Part shown: positions 417 to 15,637 of the stretch, in pieces
Position numbering within the stretch: position 1 is the first letter of the stretch
Layout of the letters: every line of letters starts with the position of its first letter
From: Deltaproteobacteria bacterium
GTDB lineage: Bacteria; Desulfobacterota; Syntrophia; Syntrophales; UBA5619
Assembly: GCA_021372695.1 (NCBI GenBank)
Contig: JAJFTY010000140.1
Coordinates: 1 to 15,637, forward strand
Reading direction: 5' to 3'
Length of the DNA stretch: 15,637 bases
Notes under the pieces: generated by a model
Told to the model about the DNA's origin: nothing
The model's database searches: none
What the model saw: only the letters and a program-made list of their open reading frames with translations
Translations under genes and position numbers: made by a program

Positions 417-1433
417 TCATGCATAGAGCTTTGCCGCATCAAAAGGGACATTGTCCCGCAGGATATAATAAGCTGCCCTGGCTAGTTTGTGGGCCAGAGC
501 ATTATGGGCCACCATGAGGTTTCTCTGCTGCCTCTTGCGTTCGTAGAAGGCCCGGCTTTGAGGATCATAGCGCCGGGCATGTTCGGCGGCCTCGGAGAAC
601 GCCCAGGCGAGATACTTGTTGCCGTTCTTTTCGTTGCCCTTACCCTTGGCCTTTTCGTTGCTGACCCAGCGGCTGATCACCTTGCGGCAGTAGGAGGCGT
701 AGTTTCCGACCTTGGCAAAGCGCTCGACGGGTCCGGTTTCCATCTCGATGGTCAAGGCCAGGATCTTCCCCACGCCGGGGATGGTCATCAGGTTGCGGTA
801 GGAGCTCCGATCCTTGACGCGGCATTCGATATGGGTCTCCAGCGCCCGGATCTGGCGGGTCAACTGATCGATGAGGTCTTTGCTGACCGTTGCGGCAAGG
901 GTCAGCTCCGGATTGGAACACAGATGGCTCTCGATGGCGGCGGTTTTGCCCTTCAGGGTATCGCCGCCCACCTTGACGCCGCAGTTGCGGGTGATGATGT
1001 TCTGCAGACTCAGCAAAAGCGAGGTCCGCAGCCTCACCAGGTGTTGGCGCTTTCTCATCAGGTCCCTCAGGGCGCGATGCGCCTTGGGGTAGATATAGCC
1101 CTCGGGCAGGATGCCGAGCCTCAGCAGCTCTGCGAGCCACCGGGCATCGTGCTTGTCATCGACATACTTGAGGCCGGAGTACTTCCGGATGGCCGCTGGA
1201 TTGGCCAGGTGGACAGGGTAGCCCGCCTCCATCAAGGCATCTACAAGCCAATACCAGTTGTAGGTGGACTCCACGGCGATCCCCGCCGTCTCCGATCGAT
1301 AGGGTGCCAGCGTCTCCAAAATGACGCGGGGATCGTTGCGAAGTTTCTTCATCATGATCGGTTTGCCGTCCTCCGAGATGGCCGCTACATAATTATTCGT
1401 TGAATGCAGGTCGATCGCCATGTACACTTTCAT
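417..1433 (-). CDS. IS110-family transposase (DEDD recombinase)
   Basis: This is a 338-residue transposase, the normal size for the family. The N-terminal RuvC-like DEDD domain shows D8 (MAIDLH), E55 (VESTYNW) and D93/D96 (DDKHDA). A helix-hairpin-helix-like motif (IPGVGKILA, about 218-226) opens the C-terminal Tnp20 domain, in which S258 of WVSN, before KNGNKYL (269-275), is the likely catalytic serine. It recombines the element's circular form into target DNA guided by a bridge RNA. The start chosen is the ATG at 1433 because GGAGGT lies 5 nt upstream (1439-1444). The frame stays open to 1502, but the added residues do not look like a transposase N-terminus. All catalytic residues are present, so it looks intact. 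Confidence 0.9.
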   Translation of the reverse strand: MKVYMAIDLHSTNNYVAAISEDGKPIMMKKLRNDPRVILETLAPYRSETAGIAVESTYNWYWLVDALMEAGYPVHLANPAAIRKYSGLKYVDDKHDARWLAELLRLGILPEGYIYPKAHRALRDLMRKRQHLVRLRTSLLLSLQNIITRNCGVKVGGDTLKGKTAAIESHLCSNPELTLAATVSKDLIDQLTRQIRALETHIECRVKDRSSYRNLMTIPGVGKILALTIEMETGPVERFAKVGNYASYCRKVISRWVSNEKAKGKGNEKNGNKYLAWAFSEAAEHARRYDPQSRAFYERKRQQRNLMVAHNALAHKLARAAYYILRDNVPFDAAKLYA

Positions 1434-1588
1434 TGGGCACCTCCAGGGTAGAGTTGGTAGCTTTCCCCTTAAGCATAGCAGGAGTCCTTCTCTCCTGACC
1501 ATGTGAAGTGAGGTGCCTTTTTATGGTTATCAATCTCGTGCATAGAATCCCGGTTGCTTCACGCCGTCCCCAATGTCACAATGCCCTT

Positions 1589-4346: not shown

Positions 4347-5093
4347 TCACTTCTTCCACCTGATATTCCTGACTTCCCTCACGAGCCGCCTCTGTTGGGC
4401 ATACAGCACAAACGTCAGGCCCATCAGCAGTGCGAGCACTCCAACATATACGGCCAACCGGTGCTGGATGCTGAAAATCAGGGGCTTGAGTGACAGGCGC
4501 GTCGCCCGCCTGAGCAGATCGTCCTGGCTGATGAAATCGGCAATCGGGGGCGACACGCGATAGTAGAATTGCACAAACAGCCTCCCCGGTTCGCTTGCCA
4601 GGAGAATGCGATCCCTGAACTTCTGCAGCAGGATAACCTCCGGCGCATAGTAACTGCCGAATGCTGCCGTGGCGATGAAGCACCCACCGCCCCCGCTGCT
4701 CGCCGACCCGCCCGAAGGCGCAGGACTGGGTGCCGGGGCCTGGGGCACCGTGTAATCGACCGCCGAGGAATAGTCGCTTTCATTGCCGTCGCCGTCGTAA
4801 GCCGTTGCAGCAAAGTAATAGGTCACCCCCTCCAGCAGCCCGGAGATGACGAAGCTTGTCACATTTCCAACATCGACGTGCGACGTGTAGCTCCCTGACA
4901 CCGTCCCGTAGTGCACCCGGTAACCGATGACACCGGGATCCGAGTTGGCATCCCAGGCAACGGTTACCTGCGCCGCGTGGGCGGTTGTCAGGAGGCTCAG
5001 TATGGCAACAAGCACAAGGACGAGGCTCGAGAGTGCTGCCAGAAGAAATGAACTATGCCTGGAAACCAAGGGGAAAGGATGTGCCTGCGACAT
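4347..5093 (-). CDS. FN3-domain CFI-box-CTERM membrane protein, copy 1
   Basis: 248 residues. Signal peptide (about 1-40, hydrophobic core 16-35, ending TTAHA), then a fibronectin type III domain (about 41-116: VTVAWDAN, GYRVHYG, YYFAATAYD), a Pro/Ser/Gly linker (117-137), then the CFI-box region (GGGGCFIATAAFGS, 134-147; EPGRLFVQFYYRVSPP, 168-183), a C-terminal hydrophobic helix (about 213-231) and a basic tail. Known from the family: the CFI box is a recurrent C-terminal module of exported proteins; its processing is not established to my knowledge. The start is firm: GGAGGTGA (5098-5105) precedes the ATG. A c-di-GMP-I riboswitch lies in the leader, so expression should follow c-di-GMP. A paralog with the same architecture is at 6616. 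Location is probably the cell surface or inner-membrane-anchored periplasm. Confidence 0.88.
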   Translation of the reverse strand: MSQAHPFPLVSRHSSFLLAALSSLVLVLVAILSLLTTAHAAQVTVAWDANSDPGVIGYRVHYGTVSGSYTSHVDVGNVTSFVISGLLEGVTYYFAATAYDGDGNESDYSSAVDYTVPQAPAPSPAPSGGSASSGGGGCFIATAAFGSYYAPEVILLQKFRDRILLASEPGRLFVQFYYRVSPPIADFISQDDLLRRATRLSLKPLIFSIQHRLAVYVGVLALLMGLTFVLYAQQRRLVREVRNIRWKK

Positions 5094-6596: not shown

Positions 6597-6637
6597 TTCT
6601 TGCTTGCCATACTTTTCACTGCCGCGAAGCAGCCCTG
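6597..6637. repeat. Degenerate single copy of the palindrome/nonamer repeat
   Basis: TTGCCATACTTTTCACT followed by GCCGCGAAGCAGC (6621-6633) and CCTG matches the nonamer-plus-palindrome unit of the array at 14053-14535 with a few changes. It overlaps the stop codon of the second CFI-box gene and fills the gap to the convergent methyltransferase gene. Orientation relative to the minus-strand gene is the same as in the main array. Confidence 0.6.
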
Positions 6638-7305
6638 CGTTTCCTCGCAATGACCGCCGCGGGGATCGCCACAACTATAGCAAAGACCGCCAGCGGGTGT
6701 TTCACGGCATAGACGATGGGCCTCAGGCCCCACCTGGCTGCTGTCTTCACCAATGCGTGCTCCGCAATGAAGGCAGCTATGGGCGGAGATACCCGGTAGT
6801 ACCACTCGACGAATGCCCGACCTGGGCTGTTGGTCATCAGCACTTCGTCCCTGAACGCCCGCAGAATTGCAACCTCGGGTGCAAGATAGCTTCCGAAGGC
6901 TGCCGTTGCGATAAAGCATCCGCCTCCACCGCCGGAAGAAGACGGGCTGGACCCCGGCACCGTGTACGCTATTTCACCCGAAAAGTTGCTTTCATCGCCT
7001 GTACTGGCATACGCAGTGGCGGATATAAAATAGGTCACACCCGGCACTAACCCCGTTATGGTGACGGTGGTCTGGCTACCCACATCGATGACCGCGGTGT
7101 AATAAGAGCTTGTTGTTCCATAATACACCCTGTAACCCGATACCGTGGGTTCGTGATTCAGGTCCCAGGCAAGTGTGACCTGTGCTGCGGGGCAGATCGA
7201 TGGCAGTATCAGAAGGATGTATAGAAGGGTGATGAAAGATGAAATGACCAGGTAAGGACGAACGAGCGTAGCCGCCTTGCTTGAAACGATGCAGAACGCG
7301 CTCAC
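6616..7305 (-). CDS. FN3-domain CFI-box-CTERM membrane protein, copy 2
   Basis: 229 residues with the same plan as the gene at 4347-5093: signal peptide (about 1-40, ending ICPAA), FN3 domain (about 41-116: VTLAWDLN, GYRVYYG, TYFISATAY), Ser/Gly linker, CFI box (GGGGGCFIATAAFGSYLAPE, 125-144), PGRAFVEWYYRVSPP (161-175), a C-terminal hydrophobic helix (about 204-220) and an RKRR-containing tail. The start is a GTG at 7305 with AGGAGG about 11 nt upstream. Its leader has no recognisable riboswitch but a strong hairpin (7350-7392), so the two paralogs appear to be controlled differently. The 3' end overlaps a repeat copy. Product class is secure; function is unknown. Confidence 0.87.
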   Translation of the reverse strand: MSAFCIVSSKAATLVRPYLVISSFITLLYILLILPSICPAAQVTLAWDLNHEPTVSGYRVYYGTTSSYYTAVIDVGSQTTVTITGLVPGVTYFISATAYASTGDESNFSGEIAYTVPGSSPSSSGGGGGCFIATAAFGSYLAPEVAILRAFRDEVLMTNSPGRAFVEWYYRVSPPIAAFIAEHALVKTAARWGLRPIVYAVKHPLAVFAIVVAIPAAVIARKRRAASRQ

Positions 7306-7428: not shown

Positions 7429-7494
7429 GTCATTATATTTTCTATGATTTATGCCTCCTATCTTTTCTGGTTCTCCACGGCAGGACGCGCGGGC

Positions 7495-7523
7495 AAAAAA
7501 AGCAGGGCATAACAAGCCCTGCT
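7495..7523 (-). terminator. Rho-independent terminator of PEP-CTERM gene 1
   Basis: On the minus strand AGCAGGGC pairs with GCCCTGCT (8 bp, 7-nt loop, 7501-7523) followed by seven T residues. It lies 23 nt after the stop codon of the gene at 7547. Confidence 0.9.
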
Positions 7524-7546: not shown

Positions 7547-8197
7547 CTATTTCATTTTCCTGCGGAAAATGCCTACCCCGATCAGGCCCGTCCCCAGCAG
7601 TATCAGAGTCATCGGCTCGGGGACCAGAGCCAGCTGATCCTGTTTATTTCCGCTTGCCCCGACCAGGTTCATTACGCCAACGTCACCCGTACCGTTCCAT
7701 TGATCAATTAAGGACTGATTAATAGCATAATTGACAAACTTATTATTCTCATCCCCATTACCGTATTGCAGTTGCCATATCGCTTGCTGAAGGAGCAGAT
7801 CGTCGGCTCTTCGCGCATTGGCATCAACATAATTGAAGATGCCCGCGACATTCCAGCTGTTGTGCGCGAACTCATGGTAGAGATACGCTACGAGGCTGTT
7901 CAACGCAATCGGCGTCGACCCGCCGTTGTACATGATCGTCGTTCCGACGGACTTGACGGTCAATTTCTCGCCGAGGTAGAAATACTCGTTGGGCTCGACG
8001 CAGAATGTCGTGAACAAAGCCGCCTTTGTTGCATAGTCGGACACGGTGAATTCGCCACCCGAGGAACCGGTGTTCCACGGCGCCCATGTAAGACTTACGG
8101 TATCACCCGCCTGGATGGCCTCCGCATGCTGCAGGGGAAGAATGGCAAGCATGACAAGGAAAAACCCTGTGATTACAGCTGCCTTCCTCTTCGTCAT
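7547..8197 (-). CDS. PEP-CTERM exported protein 1 (FCVE...QQAIW type)
   Basis: 216 residues. Signal peptide 1-27 (MTKRK, hydrophobic core, ending AEA). The body has a single cysteine, C66 in FCVEPNEYF, and a later LLQQAIWQLQYG (135-146); this Cys...Q-x-A-I-W arrangement recalls thioester (TQXA) adhesin domains, a possibility only. The C-terminus is a full sorting signal: VPEP (192-195), hydrophobic helix, FRRKMK. Known for the class: an exosortase cleaves at PEP and the protein goes to the surface or exopolysaccharide matrix. The ATG at 8197 is supported by AGGAG 8 nt upstream. It is monocistronic, with a sigma54 promoter at 8246-8260, a PrsR-site candidate at 8380-8396 and its own terminator. 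Confidence 0.9.
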   Translation of the reverse strand: MTKRKAAVITGFFLVMLAILPLQHAEAIQAGDTVSLTWAPWNTGSSGGEFTVSDYATKAALFTTFCVEPNEYFYLGEKLTVKSVGTTIMYNGGSTPIALNSLVAYLYHEFAHNSWNVAGIFNYVDANARRADDLLLQQAIWQLQYGNGDENNKFVNYAINQSLIDQWNGTGDVGVMNLVGASGNKQDQLALVPEPMTLILLGTGLIGVGIFRRKMK

Positions 8198-8245
8198 GAT
8201 AAAACTCCTTTTCTTTTTCTTATAACTTTCTTTGACCCATATTGA

Positions 8246-8260
8246 GCAGATACCATGCCA
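8246..8260 (-). promoter_or_regulatory. Sigma54 (RpoN) promoter of PEP-CTERM gene 1
   Basis: TGGCATGGTATCTGC on the minus strand matches the consensus TGGCACGNNNNTTGC at 9 of 11 defined positions, with correct GG-to-GC spacing. Transcription would start about 37 nt before the ATG at 8197. Confidence 0.8.
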
Positions 8261-8576
8261 CAGAGAGGATTCTGATCGAGGGGAGAAAAAATATCAACTA
8301 AGCACCCGTTTTCATGCACTTATTGTCTAGATCAACGCGTCTGCCCATACGGCGCCTACGAAGTTGACCGCACCAAAGTTGTCAACAATGCCGACGCCTC
8401 GTTCGTCACATTTGCAACCATTATCCCATTTAGCACATGTTTATAAGCACTTACAAAATGAATCTGATGAAACGCAAATGTAAAACATGTTTACAATTCC
8501 CTGTGCTCTCCCTGGAATTCTATTGCACTTCAATTGCTATCCGTGAAATTTTCGCCACTAGAGATAGGATGGACAC
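8261..8576. other. Intergenic control region of PEP-CTERM gene 1
   Basis: No gene is seen. Besides the candidate PrsR site it holds the 9-mer ACATGTTTA twice (8435-8443 and 8485-8493), the second inside an inverted repeat GTAAA-N5-TTTAC (8480-8494). Composition is more AT-rich than the neighbouring genes. Confidence 0.5.
8380..8396 (-). promoter_or_regulatory. Candidate PrsR upstream activating site (PEP-CTERM gene 1)
   Basis: TGTCAACAATGCCGACG fits the shared motif YGTAANNNATTCCGACR with two substitutions. It lies 119 bp upstream of the sigma54 -24 element, in the same orientation relative to transcription as the other five copies. Confidence 0.5.
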
Positions 8577-8603
8577 AAAAAAGCGGGGATTCATGCCCCG
8601 CTT
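8577..8603 (-). terminator. Rho-independent terminator of PEP-CTERM gene 2
   Basis: AAGCGGGG/CCCCGCTT, 8-bp stem with 7-nt loop (8581-8603), followed on the minus strand by a run of T residues. It lies 19 nt after the stop of the gene at 8623. Confidence 0.9.
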
Positions 8604-8622
8604 GAAGTTCGAAATTACTTAC

Positions 8623-9303
8623 TTATTGCCTTCTTCTGGCTGCCGCAATACCGAACAGGCCAACCACCAGAAGCAACAGCGTTGCGGGCTCGGGAACACT
8701 CTCCGCCGATCCGCTGCCAGTCAGCACAATCCTGCCGCTTCCCAGCGTTCCAGTGTACAGCATAGTCAGGGTGGGCGCGGGGATTAGCGAAAACTCCACA
8801 TCGCCGGAGAACAACATGCGCAGGATGGCAGGCGTAAAGACATTCCCAAATTGAGAGAAGTAGGCATCGGGCAACGACTCTGCAGCAGCGGGATTGAATA
8901 TTCCGTATCCGATATAGTCCGTATTAAATAAGTAGCCTGCCGCCCTTGTCCAGCCGTAATAATCGCTCGTCGGAGAGAGCAGAAGCGAACCGAGCACCAA
9001 ATTGCCGCCATCAAGCCGCCCTGCATAAAGCGACCAACTATCGGGTACGACAAGCGCGGACGTTGCCGGGTCGTTCCACAGTCGAATCGAAGCAATGGCC
9101 GGATAGCTTCCGTCGACTAACGGAGACGTGTTTTCCAGGGTCATCGTCAGCCGATCGCCGGAGAGGTCGACAGCCATCCGTGCCGACGCCGTCCCGTAAG
9201 GGGTATTCCCTGAAAAGGTATAGTTGTAAATGATCGCCTCCGATCCCGATGCCAATACCAACGACAGGACCAGGCCCATAAAAAGCGTGATCGTCTTGAG
9301 CAT
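8623..9303 (-). CDS. PEP-CTERM exported protein 2
   Basis: 226 residues from the ATG at 9303, supported by AGGAGGG about 8 nt upstream; the frame continues to a GTG at 9321, but that would put the Shine-Dalgarno inside the gene. Signal peptide about 1-23 (ending GSEA), a body with no motif I recognise, rich in Gly, Ser, Thr and aromatic residues as usual for beta-rich surface proteins, then VPEP (203-206), a hydrophobic segment and AARRRQ. Exosortase-dependent sorting is expected from the tail. Unlike its four PEP-CTERM neighbours it has no acceptable sigma54 promoter and no good copy of the putative PrsR site, so it may be regulated differently. It has its own terminator. Confidence 0.9.
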   Translation of the reverse strand: MLKTITLFMGLVLSLVLASGSEAIIYNYTFSGNTPYGTASARMAVDLSGDRLTMTLENTSPLVDGSYPAIASIRLWNDPATSALVVPDSWSLYAGRLDGGNLVLGSLLLSPTSDYYGWTRAAGYLFNTDYIGYGIFNPAAAESLPDAYFSQFGNVFTPAILRMLFSGDVEFSLIPAPTLTMLYTGTLGSGRIVLTGSGSAESVPEPATLLLLVVGLFGIAAARRRQ

Positions 9304-9490
9304 AACGGTTCCCTCCTTCACTCCATGCCCGGTTCAATAATGCGAAGCGAGTTAATGAGCCGAATGAGATCAGCTGCCGAACTATTTTATTTGAATGGAT
9401 TTTCTGGATGCAAAGGCTTCAAATGAATTTTTCACTACCATATTCTCGTGTCGACAACAATACTTTCTTCTCACCCGGGCATGCTTATGC

Positions 9491-9521
9491 AAAAAAAAAC
9501 GCCGCAATCGCGGCGTTTTTT
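9491..9521 (-). terminator. Rho-independent terminator of PEP-CTERM gene 3
   Basis: CGCCGC-AATC-GCGGCG (9500-9515) extended by A-run and T-run on either side, nine A on the left and six T on the right, so it can act in both directions. It ends transcription of the gene at 9541. A perfect palindrome GAGAGATCTCTC (9523-9534) sits between it and the stop codon. Confidence 0.9.
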
Positions 9522-9540
9522 CGAGAGATCTCTCAATCGG

Positions 9541-10023
9541 TCATTTCGTTCTTTTTCGCATCCCAAGCCCGATCGCCAGAAACCCGAAACCGAGAAGGAT
9601 CATTGTGGAAGGCTCAGCCACGGCAACGGGGGCTTTATCAATCAACCTACCCTCGGCGTCACTGAAAAGGACAACGAAACCGCTGATTATGCTCTCAACC
9701 GAAATGCCGCGATCAGCATTAAACAAGGGCTGGCGACCGGTCCAAGTATCGCCCAAACGTACCAGCCCGATCTCCGACATTGCGCCGCCGGGCAGCACAT
9801 ACCCCGCGATGAAGAGGGTATCGTTTGCGCTTGAGTTTGTAAGGCTGATGATCAGCCACGGTGTGGCCGTGCTAAGGCGATCGAAGCTGTACCCGATGTC
9901 GACCGATCCCGTGACCCCCCCTCCGTTCATGCCGGTTCCGGAAACGGGAAGGGCGTCAGCACCGACCGGCATCAGCGCGAGGCAGACTAATGACATAAAA
10001 ATCATGAGATTTTTCTTTTTCAT
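9541..10023 (-). CDS. PEP-CTERM exported protein 3 (AEP variant)
   Basis: 160 residues from the ATG at 10023, chosen because AGGAGG lies about 7 nt upstream and MKKKNLMIF opens a classic signal peptide (about 1-25, ending GADA). The small body (about 26-130) shows no recognised domain. The sorting tail reads AEPST (136-140) rather than PEP, followed by MILLGFGFLAIGLGM and RKRTK; AEP-type variants occur in this class, so it is probably still an exosortase substrate. It is the shortest of the five. A sigma54 promoter lies at 10060-10074 and two PrsR-site candidates lie further upstream. Confidence 0.87.
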   Translation of the reverse strand: MKKKNLMIFMSLVCLALMPVGADALPVSGTGMNGGGVTGSVDIGYSFDRLSTATPWLIISLTNSSANDTLFIAGYVLPGGAMSEIGLVRLGDTWTGRQPLFNADRGISVESIISGFVVLFSDAEGRLIDKAPVAVAEPSTMILLGFGFLAIGLGMRKRTK

Positions 10024-10059
10024 ATGACCCCTCCTTTTCTCTCTCGGAAAGAACAATAG

Positions 10060-10074
10060 GCAAGCTCCATACCA
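10060..10074 (-). promoter_or_regulatory. Sigma54 (RpoN) promoter of PEP-CTERM gene 3
   Basis: TGGTATGGAGCTTGC on the minus strand: the -24 TGG, the A and G of the first block and the -12 TTGC are all present with correct spacing. The start point would be about 25 nt before the ATG. Confidence 0.8.
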
Positions 10075-10206
10075 TCGTCGAGAAACGGATAACCCATCCG
10101 CCCAGGCTTCACCATATATGGTTGTTATTCTTTGATTTTTCGGATTGGAGCGGTCGGCATACGGAGGGTATCCGTAAATTGAGTGAGCTAAGACGAAAGT
10201 CTGATT

Positions 10207-10223
10207 TGTAAGATATACCGACG
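10207..10223 (-). promoter_or_regulatory. Candidate PrsR upstream activating site (PEP-CTERM gene 3, proximal)
   Basis: TGTAAGATATACCGACG matches the shared 17-bp motif with one substitution (A for T before CCGAC). It lies 132 bp upstream of the sigma54 promoter. Confidence 0.55.
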
Positions 10224-10314
10224 ATAATTCGATAGCAAAAAGCTATCAACATTATTTCTTTTAAAGACTATTATAATTCGAGATATTGCATCAATTTCGT
10301 TGCACAAAATGCAG

Positions 10315-10331
10315 TGTAACGAATTCCGACA
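10315..10331 (-). promoter_or_regulatory. Candidate PrsR upstream activating site (PEP-CTERM gene 3, distal)
   Basis: TGTAACGAATTCCGACA is a perfect match to the motif. It lies 240 bp upstream of the promoter and 108 bp beyond the proximal site, just before the terminator of PEP-CTERM gene 4. Confidence 0.6.
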
Positions 10332-10338
10332 TGCACAT

Positions 10339-10364
10339 AAAAAAAGCCGCCCGCAGGGGCGGCT
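10339..10364 (-). terminator. Rho-independent terminator of PEP-CTERM gene 4
   Basis: AGCCGCCC-GCAG-GGGCGGCT (10345-10364), 8-bp GC stem, followed on the minus strand by seven T residues. It lies 19 nt after the stop of the gene at 10384. Confidence 0.92.
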
Positions 10365-10383
10365 CTTTGATGCAATTTTGTAG

Positions 10384-10929
10384 CTATCTGGATTTGCTTC
10401 GCGTGGCAATACCCAATCCCAAAAGGCCAACACCAAGCAGCAACATCGTACCAGGCTCCGGGACTGCCGCAGCGGAAGTCACATGGCTGATTTTGTAGAT
10501 GTCAAATTCATATCCGGGGGCTACTGTGGCCAAGTTTATCACCCCCCAAGCCGACGAAGACTGATTTCGGAACAGGAATGTGTCCGGAGTCGTAGTATCT
10601 TTGCTGCCGGCTGCAATATTCCCCAATTTGATCAGAAAATACATAACATTCTGATCGGAAAAATTGATCGCATAGATTGTGGGCTGATTGTCAACCTGCT
10701 GCCAGACCATGCCTCCATCTTCATATTTTGCGTTTATCTGAAGGGCTGGATCAGAAAGAACATTCCTTATCCAGCCGATTTCCGTAGCGTCACCGCTGTT
10801 GCCGAGATTTGTCGAACGAATCAGAGTGTCGACCTGACCCACTGTCGACATCGGGATCGACCAAGCGTGACCCGCAAGCATTAACAAGGAACAAAGAGCA
10901 CATAAAATAATCGACGCTCTTTTCGCCAT
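10384..10929 (-). CDS. PEP-CTERM exported protein 4
   Basis: 181 residues. The ATG at 10929 (MAKRASIIL) is chosen over the in-frame start at 10986 because AGGAGG lies about 6 nt upstream and the sigma54 promoter at 10969-10983 falls inside the longer version. Signal peptide about 1-24 (ending HAWS). The body (25-150) has no motif I recognise. The tail is VPEP (156-159), a Leu/Gly-rich helix and TRSKSR, a standard exosortase signal. It has its own terminator and the best sigma54 promoter of the window, with a PrsR-site candidate 106 bp upstream. It is divergent from PEP-CTERM gene 5 across a 700-bp AT-rich region. Confidence 0.9.
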   Translation of the reverse strand: MAKRASIILCALCSLLMLAGHAWSIPMSTVGQVDTLIRSTNLGNSGDATEIGWIRNVLSDPALQINAKYEDGGMVWQQVDNQPTIYAINFSDQNVMYFLIKLGNIAAGSKDTTTPDTFLFRNQSSSAWGVINLATVAPGYEFDIYKISHVTSAAAVPEPGTMLLLGVGLLGLGIATRSKSR

Positions 10930-10968
10930 CACATCCTCCTTCACCCGCTTACCTGTATCAATAAGCGA

Positions 10969-10983
10969 GCAACCCTCGTGCCA
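10969..10983 (-). promoter_or_regulatory. Sigma54 (RpoN) promoter of PEP-CTERM gene 4, perfect consensus
   Basis: TGGCACGAGGGTTGC on the minus strand equals the consensus TGGCACGNNNNTTGC at every defined position. The start would be about 28 nt before the ATG at 10929. Confidence 0.93.
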
Positions 10984-11089
10984 CAATAACCGACAGCCCG
11001 ACCTATTCTCTACTTTGTTATAATAATTAAATATTTAAACAATTAAAATGATGAATAAAGTGCCATAATCTTTTTTCGAAACTCAGAAT

Positions 11090-11106
11090 TGTAAATTATT
11101 CCGACA
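11090..11106 (-). promoter_or_regulatory. Candidate PrsR upstream activating site (PEP-CTERM gene 4)
   Basis: TGTAAATTATTCCGACA is a perfect match to the shared motif, 106 bp upstream of the perfect sigma54 promoter. Confidence 0.6.
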
Positions 11107-11200
11107 GAAAGACTTCAAACTCCAATCAGTAAACATCAATTACAGAATAATATCTTTATTTATCTATATATTATAAATATTATGTTGCACTTGATGCAAA

Positions 11201-11217
11201 TGTCGAATTAGTTTACA
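11201..11217 (+). promoter_or_regulatory. Candidate PrsR upstream activating site (PEP-CTERM gene 5, distal)
   Basis: TGTCGAATTAGTTTACA on the plus strand; its reverse complement fits the motif with two substitutions in the ATTCC core. It lies 328 bp upstream of the sigma54 promoter and 138 bp from the proximal site. Confidence 0.45.
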
Positions 11218-11338
11218 GTCTTTTCATGCAATAATTTATCTTTATATTCTAATTACTTAAAGAATTCCCAAAAAATATTTTGCAATAAAAAAGGGCCGCC
11301 AGGTATTTGGTTGCAATTGTTTCACATCCTGTTTAATT

Positions 11339-11355
11339 CGTCGGAATGTTTTACG
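11339..11355 (+). promoter_or_regulatory. Candidate PrsR upstream activating site (PEP-CTERM gene 5, proximal)
   Basis: CGTCGGAATGTTTTACG on the plus strand is the reverse complement of a perfect motif match. It lies 190 bp upstream of the sigma54 promoter, so relative to transcription it has the same orientation as the minus-strand sites. Confidence 0.58.
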
Positions 11356-11545
11356 ATGTAACCATATTACAATAAGTTCCTGTTACTAAACATAGTATTT
11401 TTAGATACGCTTTAAATCAGCACCGGTACTGTCCAGATATTTTACGAATTTCAGTTTCATTGATTACATCGGTTGAAAATGCATTAACAAATAATGTAAA
11501 TAATATCAATTCATTATTTGCTATAAAACCCGTATCATCGCAACA

Positions 11546-11560
11546 TGGTATCTGTCTTGC
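11546..11560 (+). promoter_or_regulatory. Sigma54 (RpoN) promoter of PEP-CTERM gene 5
   Basis: TGGTATCTGTCTTGC has the -24 TGG and the complete -12 TTGC at correct spacing. The start would be about 58 nt before the ATG at 11630. Confidence 0.78.
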
Positions 11561-11629
11561 TCATGTAATTTTCATTAGTTTGACATAGGCAATTTGAGTT
11601 AATATCGGACTGGAAAGGAGGAGACAATA

Positions 11630-12289
11630 ATGAAGAGGCGAACCGTAATCGTGATGCTTGCGTGTGCCTTGGTCTGCGGACTCTCTGGGCTTTCATTCGC
11701 AGCAGTTGTACCAAATCTTATCAGCAATGGAACCTTTGATTCAGGCTTGGTTTCTTGGAATCCATCGGGCGATGTTGTCGTAGGCACTGGTGGGACAGGT
11801 GTGTTAAGCGGCAACTACGCTCTCCTGGGTGCTAATTCCACAGACGGAAATAGTTCCATTAATCAGTACTTTAACATTTCAGATGGTACCACCCAGCTTG
11901 CAGTTTCCTTCAGTTATCGTTTTACCGGTGTCGACACCAGCTATTTTTCTTCTGACAGGGCATTAGCGACCCTCACTCAATTCATCGGAGGATGGAGCGC
12001 AACAACGGAAATGATCAGTGAACGGAGTTCCGAAGAGTTTATAACACAGGGAGTATATTCTGGTATTGTCGATGTAGCTAACTGGCTCTGGTGGGACGCG
12101 ACTTCAGGCAACTTACGTTTCACGTTATCTGAAAGCAGTCCATATAGTGGATGGTTCTGGACGGACGGTGTGACGAACAGTTCTTTCGCCATAGATAACG
12201 TCAGCGTAGCCGCAGTGCCCGAGCCCACCACGATGCTCCTTCTTGGGCTGGGTCTTGTGGGCCTTGCTGCCTCGCGCCGCAGGAAGTAA
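11630..12289 (+). CDS. PEP-CTERM exported protein 5 (jelly-roll-like domain)
   Basis: 219 residues. Signal peptide about 1-24 (MKRRT, hydrophobic core, ending SFA). The mature part begins NLISNGTFDSGLVSW and ends with FAIDNVSV just before the sorting signal, a pattern typical of carbohydrate-binding-module-like jelly-roll domains in extracellular proteins; sugar binding is an inference. The tail is VPEP (196-199), TTMLLLGLGLVGLAA and SRRRK. GGAAAGGAGGAG lies just before the ATG. It is the only PEP-CTERM gene here on the plus strand, with its own sigma54 promoter, two PrsR-site candidates and a strong terminator, so it is monocistronic. It is convergent with prsR. Confidence 0.92.
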   Translation: MKRRTVIVMLACALVCGLSGLSFAAVVPNLISNGTFDSGLVSWNPSGDVVVGTGGTGVLSGNYALLGANSTDGNSSINQYFNISDGTTQLAVSFSYRFTGVDTSYFSSDRALATLTQFIGGWSATTEMISERSSEEFITQGVYSGIVDVANWLWWDATSGNLRFTLSESSPYSGWFWTDGVTNSSFAIDNVSVAAVPEPTTMLLLGLGLVGLAASRRRK

Positions 12290-12576: not shown

Positions 12577-14004
12577 CTACTTTCTCGCAATCCCCAATTT
12601 CTCCATCAACTCATAGAGCGTAGGTCGGCTGATTCCCAGCTCCTCGGCGGCGCGGGTGATGTTGTCCTTCTGACGGGCAAGGACCTTCAGGATCATCTCC
12701 CTCTCCAGCGTCTCCCTCGCCGCCCGGAGGGTCATCCCCTCGAACCGGCCCGCAGGCTCCTCCAGCTCGAGATCGGCGGGCTTCACCTTGCGGCCCTCTG
12801 CCATGATCACGGCCCGCTTGACCCGATTCTCCAGTTCCCGGACGTTTCCCGGCCAGGGATAGGCAGAAATCGCCGTCATGGCCGGCTGGGTGAACCCGGT
12901 GATCTTTTTCTTGTTCTCCTTGACAGCCCGCTGCAGGAAGGCATGGGCCAGAACGAGAACATCGTCGTCCCGCTCCTTGAGTGCCGGCAGGTAGATGGAT
13001 ACCACGCTCAGACGGAAGAAAAGATCCTCCCGGAATTTTCCATCCTGCATGGCCTGCTTGAGGTCCTTGTTCGTGGCCGCCACGATCCGAACATCCACCC
13101 GGATCTGGTCGCGACCGCCAACCCTCTCGATGACTTGCTCCTGCAGGAAGCGCAGCATCTTGACCTGCAATGGCAGGGACAGCTCGCCAATCTCGTCGAG
13201 AAAGAGCGTCCCGCCGTTCGCCAACTCGAACCGGCCCTTGCGCTGCATGTGGGCCCCCGTGTAGGCCCCTTTTTCGTGACCGAACAGCTCGCTCTCCAGG
13301 AGGTTCTCCGGGATGGCCCCGCAGTTGATGACGACGAAAGGCCCGCTGCGGTACTGGCTCTGGCGGTGGATCGCCTGCGCAACGAGCTCTTTCCCCGTCC
13401 CGCTCTCTCCCGTGATCAGGACGGGGACATCCGTGCTCGACACCTTGCGAACCGTCGCAAAGACCTCCTGCATCCTGGCGCTTGTCCCCAGCATGCCCTC
13501 GAATGCGTCATCCTGCGACTTCATCTGGAGCTCTGCGTTTTCCCGCTCGAGCGTCGAGACGTGCTGCGCTCGTCTCAGGATCGTTCTGAGCTCGCCGATG
13601 TCGATCGGTTTGTAGAGAATGTCGTAGGCCCCCCCTGACACCGCCTTCAGGGCATGCTCCTTCTCGGCCCGTCCCGTGACGATGACGACCTTGAGGAAGG
13701 GGTCCATCGCGAGGGCCTCGGAAAGCACGGCAAACCCCTCTTCAACGCTCGCCGGGTGCGGCGGCAGACCGAGGTCCAGCACCATGACGGACGGTTTGTG
13801 CTCGCGCAGTTCCGCAAGAGCGCTCACCCGATCCGCTGCAAGCGTAATGTCGCACTCCGCAGCGAGTGCCCATTTCATCTGGGTGCGCACGTCCTCATCG
13901 TCTTCGACGATAAGCAGACGGAGCCTTTGCGCGGGCAGCGTAACGCGTGAAGCCTGGAGATCATTCTCAGTCAAAACGTTTTCCTTTGCGAATTCCCCGG
14001 ACAC
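12577..14004 (-). CDS. prsR: PEP-CTERM-box response regulator PrsR (sigma54 activator)
   Basis: 475 residues in three parts. Receiver (about 28-145): D35/D36, phospho-acceptor D77 in VMVLDLGLPP, T110 and K132. AAA+ sigma54-interaction domain (about 168-400): Walker A GESGTGKE (199-206), GAYTGA loop (246-251) that contacts sigma54, Walker B GGTLFLDE (264-271), and WPGNVRELENR (384-394). C-terminal Fis-type HTH (about 449-470: ITRAAEELGISRPTLYELM). Known role: with kinase PrsK it turns on PEP-CTERM genes from RpoN promoters. That fits the four sigma54 promoters just upstream in this window. The start is a GTG at 14004 with GGAGGA about 8 nt upstream. It lies 538 bp after prsK, the gap being filled by the repeat array; one transcript through the array is plausible. 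Confidence 0.95.
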   Translation of the reverse strand: MSGEFAKENVLTENDLQASRVTLPAQRLRLLIVEDDEDVRTQMKWALAAECDITLAADRVSALAELREHKPSVMVLDLGLPPHPASVEEGFAVLSEALAMDPFLKVVIVTGRAEKEHALKAVSGGAYDILYKPIDIGELRTILRRAQHVSTLERENAELQMKSQDDAFEGMLGTSARMQEVFATVRKVSSTDVPVLITGESGTGKELVAQAIHRQSQYRSGPFVVINCGAIPENLLESELFGHEKGAYTGAHMQRKGRFELANGGTLFLDEIGELSLPLQVKMLRFLQEQVIERVGGRDQIRVDVRIVAATNKDLKQAMQDGKFREDLFFRLSVVSIYLPALKERDDDVLVLAHAFLQRAVKENKKKITGFTQPAMTAISAYPWPGNVRELENRVKRAVIMAEGRKVKPADLELEEPAGRFEGMTLRAARETLEREMILKVLARQKDNITRAAEELGISRPTLYELMEKLGIARK

Positions 14005-14052: not shown

Positions 14053-14535
14053 CCGTCACTCTTGTCACTCTTGTCACTTTTATCACTGCCGCTCAGCGGC
14101 CCTGTTGTCACTCTTGCCACTCTTGTCACTTCTGTCACTGCGGCGCAGCCGCCTTGTCACTCTTGTCACTTTTGCCACTTTTGCCACTGCCGCGCAGCGG
14201 CCCTGCCCATCTTGCCACTTTCTTCCTATCATTCTTGTCACTTCTTCCACTGCAGCGAAGCTGCCTTGCCACTCTTGTCACTTCTGCCACTGCGGCGCAG
14301 CCGCCTTGCCACTCTTGTCACTTTTGCCACTTTTGCCACTGCCGCGCAGCGGCCCTGTTGTCACTCTTGCCACTCTTGCCACCTCTTGTCACTGCGGCGC
14401 AGCCGCCTTGTCACTCTTGCCACTTTTGCCACTTCTACCACTGCCGCGCAGCGGCCTTGTTGCCACTCTTGTCACTTCTGTCACTGCCGCGTAGCGGCCC
14501 TGTTGTCACTCTTGTCACTCTTGCCACTTCCTCTA
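14053..14535 (-). repeat. Array of nine palindromes and tandem nonamers between prsK and prsR
   Basis: Nine 13-bp palindromes start at 14088, 14140, 14189, 14252, 14292, 14341, 14394, 14443 and 14486, 40-63 bp apart. Four read GCCGCGCAGCGGC or close, three GCGGCGCAGCCGC, one GCAGCGAAGCTGC and the first GCCGCTCAGCGGC. The third stem pair is C-G, G-C or A-T, always paired. Between them lie, in most cases, about four tandem 9-mers of the form TTGYCACTY. It fills almost the whole prsK-prsR gap. On the prsK transcript it would give nine small hairpins separated by AGTGRCAAR spacers. There are no stop codons in several plus frames, giving false Cys/His/Leu-rich reading frames. Single damaged copies are at 4199-4250 and 6597-6637. 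Confidence 0.9.
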
Positions 14536-14542
14536 CACGCCC

Positions 14543-15637
14543 TCATCTCTTCCCCGGCAGAAATACCCTGAACGTGCTGCCTTTCCCTTCTTCGCTCTCC
14601 ACCTCGATCCGCCCTCCATGGGCCTCCACGATCGTTTTGCAGTGAAACAGCCCAATCCCCATGCCTTTCGGTTTTGTCGTCTGGAAAGGTTTGAACAGGC
14701 GCGTCTCGACGAACTCCCGAGACATGCCGCAACCCGTGTCGCTTACAGCCAGCTGCGCCCATCCATCGCTCATCGAAGTCGCTACAGTGATCTTTCCATC
14801 CTCCGATACGGCATCGCTTGCATTGACCAGCAGATTTCCGACGACCTTCTGCATCTGTTCGGCATCGACATACAGATCGTGCACGCGGCCCAGCGAACAT
14901 TGGACAGGCACCTTGAGCAACCCTTCGAGGCCCTTCACGGATTCGGACACGATCTGGTCGAGGTTGGATTCCCGGGGCGACACCTTGCTCCTCTCACTCA
15001 GCAGCGACAACCGGCTGCACATGCTGTTGATCTTCTCGACGCTTTGCGTAACGGAGCGGATCGCGTCCTTGCGGAATTCCGGGTTTTCGAAATGGACGGG
15101 CAGGTTCTGCATCACCAGGGAGAGCTTCGAGCCGAGATTTTTCAAATCGTGCATGAAGAAAGCCGACATCATCTGTAAGGCCTCCAGGGCCTTCGCCTTG
15201 TTGAGCTGGTCCGCCAGGCGCAGGCGCAGCAGGCTCGAGGCGGTTTGGTCGGCTATCGTCTTCAGCAGCTCGCTGTCCTGGTCCGTGAGAGGCGATGCCG
15301 AACCGCGCCCGGCCAGGGTGAGGACACCAATCAGGCGGCCGGCTGCGCGCAGGGCCACGACATAACGGATGCGCGCCTCCGACAACGCAGCCGCGTGGCT
15401 CTCCCTGAAATCCGGGACCCAGTCCTCGTTCGAGTCTTCAAAATCCACCGGCATCTCGCGAGCCCAGAGGGCGAGCATCAGTTCTGCGCCGGCCTGCCCC
15501 GTCATTCTCATCTTCCGAGCCTGCTCTTCCGTCAGGGCTGTGGAGGCGACGAACACAAGGGCGTCCCGGCTCTCCTCCGCAACCCACAGGCTTACGGACA
15601 GACAATCCAGGGTCTCCGAGACCATGTTCACGACCGC
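14543..15637 (-). CDS. prsK: PEP-CTERM system histidine kinase PrsK (C-terminal part)
   Basis: The reading frame is open to the window edge, so only about the last 364 residues are seen; the N-terminal membrane-spanning part lies outside. Visible parts: a GAF-like sensor domain (about the first 135 residues, GRLIGVLTLAGR, DQDSELLKTIADQ), a coiled segment, the H box with H in FFMHDLKN, then the HATPase: N box VGNLLVNASDAV, G1 DTGCGM, G2 KGMGIGLF and the ending STFRVFLPGKR. This order and the HDLKN form match PrsK. It autophosphorylates on His and should pass the phosphate to D77 of PrsR, encoded next on the same strand. The signal it senses is not known from the sequence. Confidence 0.93.
   Translation of the reverse strand, partial: AVVNMVSETLDCLSVSLWVAEESRDALVFVASTALTEEQARKMRMTGQAGAELMLALWAREMPVDFEDSNEDWVPDFRESHAAALSEARIRYVVALRAAGRLIGVLTLAGRGSASPLTDQDSELLKTIADQTASSLLRLRLADQLNKAKALEALQMMSAFFMHDLKNLGSKLSLVMQNLPVHFENPEFRKDAIRSVTQSVEKINSMCSRLSLLSERSKVSPRESNLDQIVSESVKGLEGLLKVPVQCSLGRVHDLYVDAEQMQKVVGNLLVNASDAVSEDGKITVATSMSDGWAQLAVSDTGCGMSREFVETRLFKPFQTTKPKGMGIGLFHCKTIVEAHGGRIEVESEEGKGSTFRVFLPGKR

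Follow-up and report, generated by a model that had tools for sequence, protein, structure and literature searches.

The 15,637 nucleotides (nt) of contig JAJFTY010000140.1 from a Deltaproteobacteria bacterium (assembly GCA_021372695.1; the whole stretch is hereafter called the window) carry five PEP-CTERM genes next to prsR and part of prsK. A sequence-only reading of the window had proposed that six copies of a 17-bp motif upstream of four sigma54 promoters form the operator of PrsR, a sigma54 activator encoded nearby. Our analysis points to eight such sites, which are very probably PrsR enhancer sites upstream of PEP-CTERM genes. We regard this as the best reading because the regulator is identified by its family profile TIGR02915, because the motif was blindly recovered from PrsR-bearing relatives, and because the same direction rule holds there. 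It is further supported by the occurrence of the same operator together with the same helix-turn-helix (HTH) helix in Verrucomicrobiota and Acidobacteriota and by published work on PEP-CTERM regulation. What we establish here are the sites themselves, the promoter sequences, their orientation, and their conservation together with PrsR.

Both strands of the window were scanned for the pattern of the sequence-only reading, YGTAANNNATTCCGACR, with mismatches counted and 200 dinucleotide shuffles as control. Exact matches lie at 10315-10331, 11090-11106 and, on the minus strand as matched by YGTAANNNATTCCGACR, at 11339-11355, while a single mismatch is found at 10207-10223 and two mismatches each at 8380-8396 and 11201-11217 (minus strand). 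All six positions and mismatch counts of the earlier proposal were thus borne out, and these copies are indeed intergenic, share one orientation relative to transcription, and precede four sigma54 promoters at distances of 106-328 nt (119, 132, 240, 106, 190, and 328 nt). Allowing up to three mismatches gave 10 matches in the window compared to 3.2 expected, and none of the 200 shuffles reached 10. The remaining four, each with three mismatches, are found at 11430-11446 (minus strand), 4793, 11256, and 14933; the first is a genuine additional copy according to a matrix built from relatives, which the other three fail.

This matrix was derived without the window. PrsR was scored as present in a genome when a TIGR02915 match exceeded the cut-off, i.e., in 13 of 118 genomes from the phylum of a relative and in all 15 further genomes tested. 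A search of 15 genomes for PEP-CTERM proteins gave 44 TIGR02595 matches in 11 genomes, and 41 of the upstream regions (up to 500 nt each) were used, leaving out the contig-edge fragments L185, L218, and L221. The borders of these regions are approximate because start codons were picked by a script rule (signal-peptide-like N-terminus, ribosome site, ATG). Expectation-maximisation at a preset width of 17, to which the motif of the sequence-only reading had not been supplied, returned TGTCggAAtanTTTACA as the top motif and, after shifted forms of it, the -24/-12 promoter TGGCAcnnnnaTTGCa as the next. Applied to the window, the relatives-only matrix recovered the six known sites and two that had been overlooked, 11430-11446 (plus strand) and 8479-8495 (minus strand). 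In 60 block-Markov controls, 1.9 sites above 9 bits and 0.15 above 13 bits would be expected, whereas the window holds eight (nine matches, with one palindromic site matched on both strands) and seven, respectively. All eight are confined to the three intergenic stretches that precede genes 1, 3, 4, and 5 and account for 9.5% of the window, and nothing else in the window exceeds 9 bits.

These numbers bear on the alternative that the sites reflect chance or low-complexity AT-rich similarity across long intergenic regions. The intergenic regions of the window are AT-rich, the pattern had been picked after inspection of the sequence, and chance matches do occur, e.g., in Verrucomicrobiota genomes without PrsR, where 14 of 15 exact matches fall within open reading frames (ORFs) of at least 150 amino acids (aa). 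Given the shuffles, the seven sites above 13 bits where 0.15 are expected, and the blind recovery in other genomes and phyla, we nevertheless consider chance extremely improbable as an explanation of the motif as a whole, though single weak sites such as 8380-8396 (11.9 bits) may be due to it.

Scanning the window with a sigma54 consensus, and additionally scoring in bits with a matrix, revealed four sigma54-like promoters with -24 (GG) and -12 (GC) elements, each preceding a PEP-CTERM gene and each with operators upstream. At gene 1 (7547-8197, minus strand), the promoter at 8245-8260 (TGGCATGGTATCTGCT; 15.1 bits) is preceded by predicted PrsR operators at 8380-8396 (proximal; CGTCGGCATTGTTGACA; 119 nt to the promoter) and 8479-8495 (distal; near-palindrome TGTAAACATGTTTTACA; 218 nt; 14.2 bits, and 10.9 on the plus strand), all on the minus strand. 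Gene 3 (9541-10023, minus strand) has its promoter at 10059-10074 (TGGTATGGAGCTTGCC; 12.0 bits), with predicted operators at 10207-10223 (proximal; CGTCGGTATATCTTACA; 132 nt; 13.9 bits) and 10315-10331 (distal; TGTCGGAATTCGTTACA; 240 nt; 17.3 bits) on the same strand. For gene 4 (10384-10929, minus strand), there is one predicted operator at 11090-11106 (minus strand; TGTCGGAATAATTTACA), which has the top score of the window (22.5 bits) and lies 106 nt from the promoter at 10968-10983 (minus strand; TGGCACGAGGGTTGCT; 18.3 bits). Gene 5 (11630-12289) is transcribed in the opposite direction from a promoter at 11546-11561 (TGGTATCTGTCTTGCT; 11.8 bits), and its three predicted operators at 11201-11217 (distal; TGTCGAATTAGTTTACA; 328 nt; 19.0 bits), 11339-11355 (middle; CGTCGGAATGTTTTACG; 190 nt; 18.8 bits), and 11430-11446 (proximal; TGTCCAGATATTTTACG; 99 nt; 17.0 bits) are likewise on the plus strand. 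The earlier count of two copies at gene 3 therefore stands, while gene 5 has three instead of two, gene 1 has two, and the total is eight rather than six.

Relative to transcription, all sites point in a common direction and read YGTCGGAATNNNTTACR or a close variant towards the gene, with YGTCGGAATNNTTTACR as the gene-ward consensus of the eight 17-bp sites. Comparing the matrix with its own reverse complement showed that the outer TGT and ACA are symmetric while positions 4, 6, and 8 are asymmetric; some sites are near-perfect palindromes, such as 8479 in the window and the sites of G065 among the relatives. The direction rule formulated for the window also holds in the 41 regions of the relatives, where a sense site above 18 bits is present in 21 regions and an antisense one in 1, and above 12 bits in 29 and 9, respectively. 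Fixed orientation is unusual among sigma54 enhancers, and these observations raise the question of why the enhancer of a dimeric activator would be read in a single direction.

The regulator and the PEP-CTERM proteins were identified with protein profiles. The product of prsR (12577-14004, minus strand), a PEP-CTERM-box response regulator, matches TIGR02915 with 615.8 bits at a curated cut-off of 502.6 and comprises a receiver, a sigma54 activator domain, and a Fis-type HTH, and the gene lies 1.1 kb from the sites, in agreement with the roughly 1 kb noted before. The C-terminal part of prsK (14543-15637, minus strand) runs off the end of the window, and this truncated gene matches TIGR02916 with 252.8 bits at a cut-off of 300. 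All five PEP-CTERM proteins exceed the cut-off of PF07589, and those of genes 1, 2 (8623-9306, minus strand), 4, and 5 also match TIGR02595, which is not listed for the product of gene 3 (PF07589 21.0 at a cut-off of 20.7). The closest relative, G001, encodes two PrsR proteins above the cut-off (C9:112771-114096 and C139:6-1163), of which one is cut by the contig before the HTH and is 86% identical to the PrsR of the window over residues 1-416, while the other carries the helix SRPTLHDLIKKHDI.

Among the 118 genomes of the relative's phylum, the exact pattern is found in 3 of 13 with PrsR and in 4 of 105 without (Fisher p 0.029). All four exact sites in PrsR-bearing genomes have a sigma54-like promoter of at least 14.5 bits downstream, and none lies within an ORF of 150 aa or more, whereas the four in genomes without PrsR have no downstream promoter above 6.2 bits, and two of them fall within ORFs of 437 and 589 aa. 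With a broader pattern, there were 22 matches in the 13 genomes with PrsR and 88 in the 105 without, with at least one match in 10 of 13 and 50 of 105 genomes, respectively (Mann-Whitney p 0.018). All of the former and a sample of 25 of the latter were assessed: A sigma54 promoter follows 14 of the 22 compared to 1 of the 25, a PEP-CTERM ORF 13 compared to 1, and 3 compared to 13 lie within ORFs of at least 150 aa. The discriminating feature is the position relative to promoters and genes and not the genome-wide count, which we rejected as a marker of PrsR because it is weak in this phylum and gives no separation in Verrucomicrobiota. One genome without PrsR, G116, has seven broader-pattern matches, four of them on one 6-kb contig (L350, G116:C13) and five with an identical 17-mer, perhaps within a repeated element.

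Outside this first phylum, PEP-CTERM regions were a chosen sample of 60 and not every match. Of two Scalindua and seven Rokubacteria regions, one each has a sense site above 12 bits together with a sigma54 promoter, and a betaproteobacterial control had a site above 11 bits in 7 of 19 regions (a 20th, L280, is a 42-nt contig edge and was left out). By contrast, only 1 of 31 sampled PEP-CTERM regions from PrsR-bearing Verrucomicrobiota and Acidobacteriota has a site above 12 bits. We therefore rejected the idea that the operator controls PEP-CTERM genes in these two phyla; instead, it is carried by their VPDSG- and VPDGG-CTERM genes. There, operator and sigma54 promoter precede such genes both near prsK-prsR and elsewhere in the genomes (L351, 6625-7506, with a site at 7490-7506; L352, 1552-2677; L009, L012, L013, and L014). 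Searching 12 genomes with TIGR03778 gave 34 matches in 11 of them, and 30 regions were usable after leaving out one fragment (L392) and three without a start in the contig. Sense sites above 12 bits are present in 21 of the 30 regions and antisense sites in 4; when similar regions are merged, 18 of 26 clusters have a site, and sites occur in all 10 genomes that contributed a usable region. The difference between 21 of 30 VPDSG/VPDGG and 1 of 31 PEP-CTERM regions corresponds to a p of 2e-8, for genome sets that are not identical and regions that are not independent within a genome. A blind search in the 30 regions returned cGTCGGaAtnCcTTACA, a near-match to the pattern of the sequence-only reading. 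Furthermore, the helix SRPTLYELMEKLGI of the PrsR in the window is identical in 9 of the 11 regulators from these phyla that were compared (L003-L007, L009, and L012-L014), and those of L015 and L018 are one residue off.

This use of the operator at VPDSG/VPDGG-CTERM genes outside Proteobacteria is apparently new, as we found no published report of it; the literature that we searched, with subscription papers mostly beyond its reach, contained no mention of VPDSG-CTERM or VPDGG. It would provide a means to predict the sorting system to which a given surface protein belongs. On balance, we favor the view that PrsR makes up a cassette with its directional, asymmetric enhancer, and that this cassette is older or more mobile than Proteobacteria and follows the surface system beside prsK-prsR rather than the PEP signal. 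The operator would then drive PEP-CTERM genes in Deltaproteobacteria-type genomes, in Betaproteobacteria, and in at least one genome each of Scalindua and Rokubacteria, but VPDSG/VPDGG-CTERM genes in Verrucomicrobiota and Acidobacteriota, and its fixed orientation would be a functional requirement. As a separate observation, a Vibrio alfacsensis plasmid with prsK-prsR carries an operator (L394, 26878-26894) followed 92 nt on by a sigma54 promoter and an unnamed gene without NCBIfam match.

At the 27 promoters of relatives with a site, the proximal spacer is 54-84 nt in 18, 104-128 nt in six, 21 nt in one, and more than 200 nt in two, i.e., above 92 nt in 8 of 27. Spacers are 52-97 nt in the five betaproteobacterial regions whose promoter also exceeds the threshold, and 97-123 nt at 13 of 20 VPDGG promoters, the latter resembling the window. 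With nearest copies at 99, 106, 119, and 132 nt, the window spacers belong to this longer class, and no window site lies at the published distance of about 62 nt (no score above -2.2 bits between 24 and 98 nt). Neighboring copies within an array of the window are 91-138 nt apart. We do not claim helical phasing, as the signal is weak and changes with the assumed period: For periods of 10, 10.5, and 11 bp, Rayleigh z is 0.07, 0.36, and 2.8 for the gaps and 0.44, 4.7, and 6.9 for proximal spacers, with paralogous promoters kept in.

The arrays also allow for the possibility that only promoter-proximal copies work and that distal ones (10315, 11201, 11339, and 8479) are relics or serve another role, e.g., for a divergent neighbor. 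A single site is indeed all that 14 of the 27 relative promoters have, and the sites at 11090 and 11201 both lie in a single intergenic region between divergent genes. Yet distal copies outscore proximal ones at genes 1, 3, and 5, and arrays recur at 13 of 27 relative, 9 of 20 VPDGG, and 3 of 4 window promoters, which makes this restriction to proximal copies rather doubtful.

Several results weigh against the assignment of the sites to PrsR. Within the window, the region upstream of gene 2, although located between regulated genes, has neither an operator above 9 bits nor a sigma54 promoter, and all four nearest-copy spacers fall outside the published range discussed below. Among the relatives, 12 of 41 PEP-CTERM regions are without any site above 12 bits, and the sense/antisense and 22-versus-25 counts are partly circular because the matrix, the sigma54 scores, and the pattern were derived from those regions; the exact-pattern and VPDGG tests are free of this circularity, and the exact pattern owes nothing to the relatives. 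Scanning 28 prsR loci gave 25 matrix matches above 13.5 bits, of which 13 are followed by a gene with a PEP-CTERM or VPDGG-CTERM signal and eight fall within ORFs of at least 150 aa. In Verrucomicrobiota, the exact pattern occurs in 1 of 4 genomes with PrsR and 15 of 190 without (p 0.29), and the sole match in the former sits within an ORF. Moreover, no site above 14 bits was found in a 41-kb plasmid stretch around prsR of D. vulgaris RCH1, and Rajeev et al. 2011 (PMC3333781) state that no motif was validated for DVUA0057, the PrsR of D. vulgaris. Finally, G107 has no regulator above the cut-off, and yet a single site there comes with both a sigma54 promoter and a PEP-CTERM gene.

Some of these points would fit a different binder of the motif, either a second sigma54 activator or some other DNA-binding protein present in the same genomes as PrsR, with PrsR itself acting elsewhere. 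The link between motif and PrsR is correlative, and genomes encode many NtrC-type regulators, with 117 of 118 having at least two TIGR02915 matches at E <= 1e-100, the majority of which do not reach the cut-off. However, G107 may be an incomplete assembly. In several phyla, site, sigma54 promoter, and sorting-signal gene lie close to prsK-prsR, and DVUA0057 itself enriched five predicted PEP-CTERM targets in vitro by DNA affinity purification on microarrays (DAP-chip), according to the same study (PMC3333781). We thus consider a different binder unlikely and PrsR the well-supported candidate for a predicted interaction.

From this arrangement, we infer how PrsR might contact the motif, be phosphorylated, loop, and use several copies. 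PrsR would be activated, presumably via phosphorylation by PrsK, and would use its Fis-type HTH to bind TGTCRG-N5-TTTACA, an imperfect dyad, assembling on one to three sites per gene. By looping, bound PrsR could then reach sigma54 RNA polymerase at a -24/-12 promoter that lies 99-132 nt further downstream than the closest site, and the AAA+ domain of PrsR would open this promoter. The outcome might be a joint switch-on of four of the five PEP-CTERM genes.

Among other features of the window, two proteins encoded beside the PEP-CTERM cluster (4347-5093 and 6616-7305, minus strand) have a CFI-box-CTERM domain (NF041770) at the C-terminus, and an IS110-family transposase is encoded at 417-1502 (minus strand; PF01548 and PF02371). 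A degenerate tandem array at 14055-14530 (unit of about 49 bp, 9.5 copies, 73% match) occupies most of the interval that separates prsR from prsK.

The assignment to PrsR is not new. Although the sequence-only reading was not aware of it, a motif had been published: Haft et al. 2006 (PMC1569441) described a 17-nt "motif 1" with TTTACA at its 3' end that is sometimes repeated and has a sigma54 motif downstream, at a mean distance of 62.8 nt (32-92 nt; this range describes 99 genes and is not a definition). Of 167 proteobacterial PEP-CTERM genes, 99 had the motif in their upstream regions; it was found in Proteobacteria only, and phylogenetic profiles led the authors to predict that PrsR binds it. 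Site and PrsR link were thus predicted twenty years ago, and the window presents them as a compact system of regulator, partial kinase, four promoters, and eight sites in about 8 kb.

The window shares with motif 1 the length of 17 nt, the consensus 3' TTTACA, the location upstream of a -24/-12 promoter in fixed order with occasional repeats, the single-gene operons and long intergenic regions, the presence of prsK and prsR in the genome, and the prediction as a PrsR site; a site precedes four of its five PEP-CTERM genes, and the sites fit the relatives' consensus TGTCggAAtanTTTACA. Differences are the up to three copies per gene, an exact TTTACA in three of eight sites, and the distance of the nearest copy from the promoter, which at 99-132 nt is longer than anything in the reported range; the main spacer group of the relatives (54-84 nt) agrees with that range. 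DVUA0057, encoded on pDV1, is a homologue of the PrsR of the window; among the matches listed, which do not include pDV1, the regulators encoded on plasmids of three further N. vulgaris strains are 49.8% identical to the latter. In floc-forming Betaproteobacteria, pepA of Aquincola depends on RpoN1 and has a mapped -24/-12 promoter (PMC9850573), and a PEP-CTERM gene depends on PrsK-PrsR according to Zoogloea work cited in PMC9012009. These share with the window a PEP-CTERM gene with a -24/-12 promoter and a predicted enhancer upstream but belong to another lineage, and their enhancer is predicted and unmapped. The VPDSG-CTERM genes (TIGR03778) of PrsR-bearing Verrucomicrobiota and Acidobacteriota, in turn, differ from the window in phylum and sorting signal yet have the same operator, sigma54 promoter, and spacer class.

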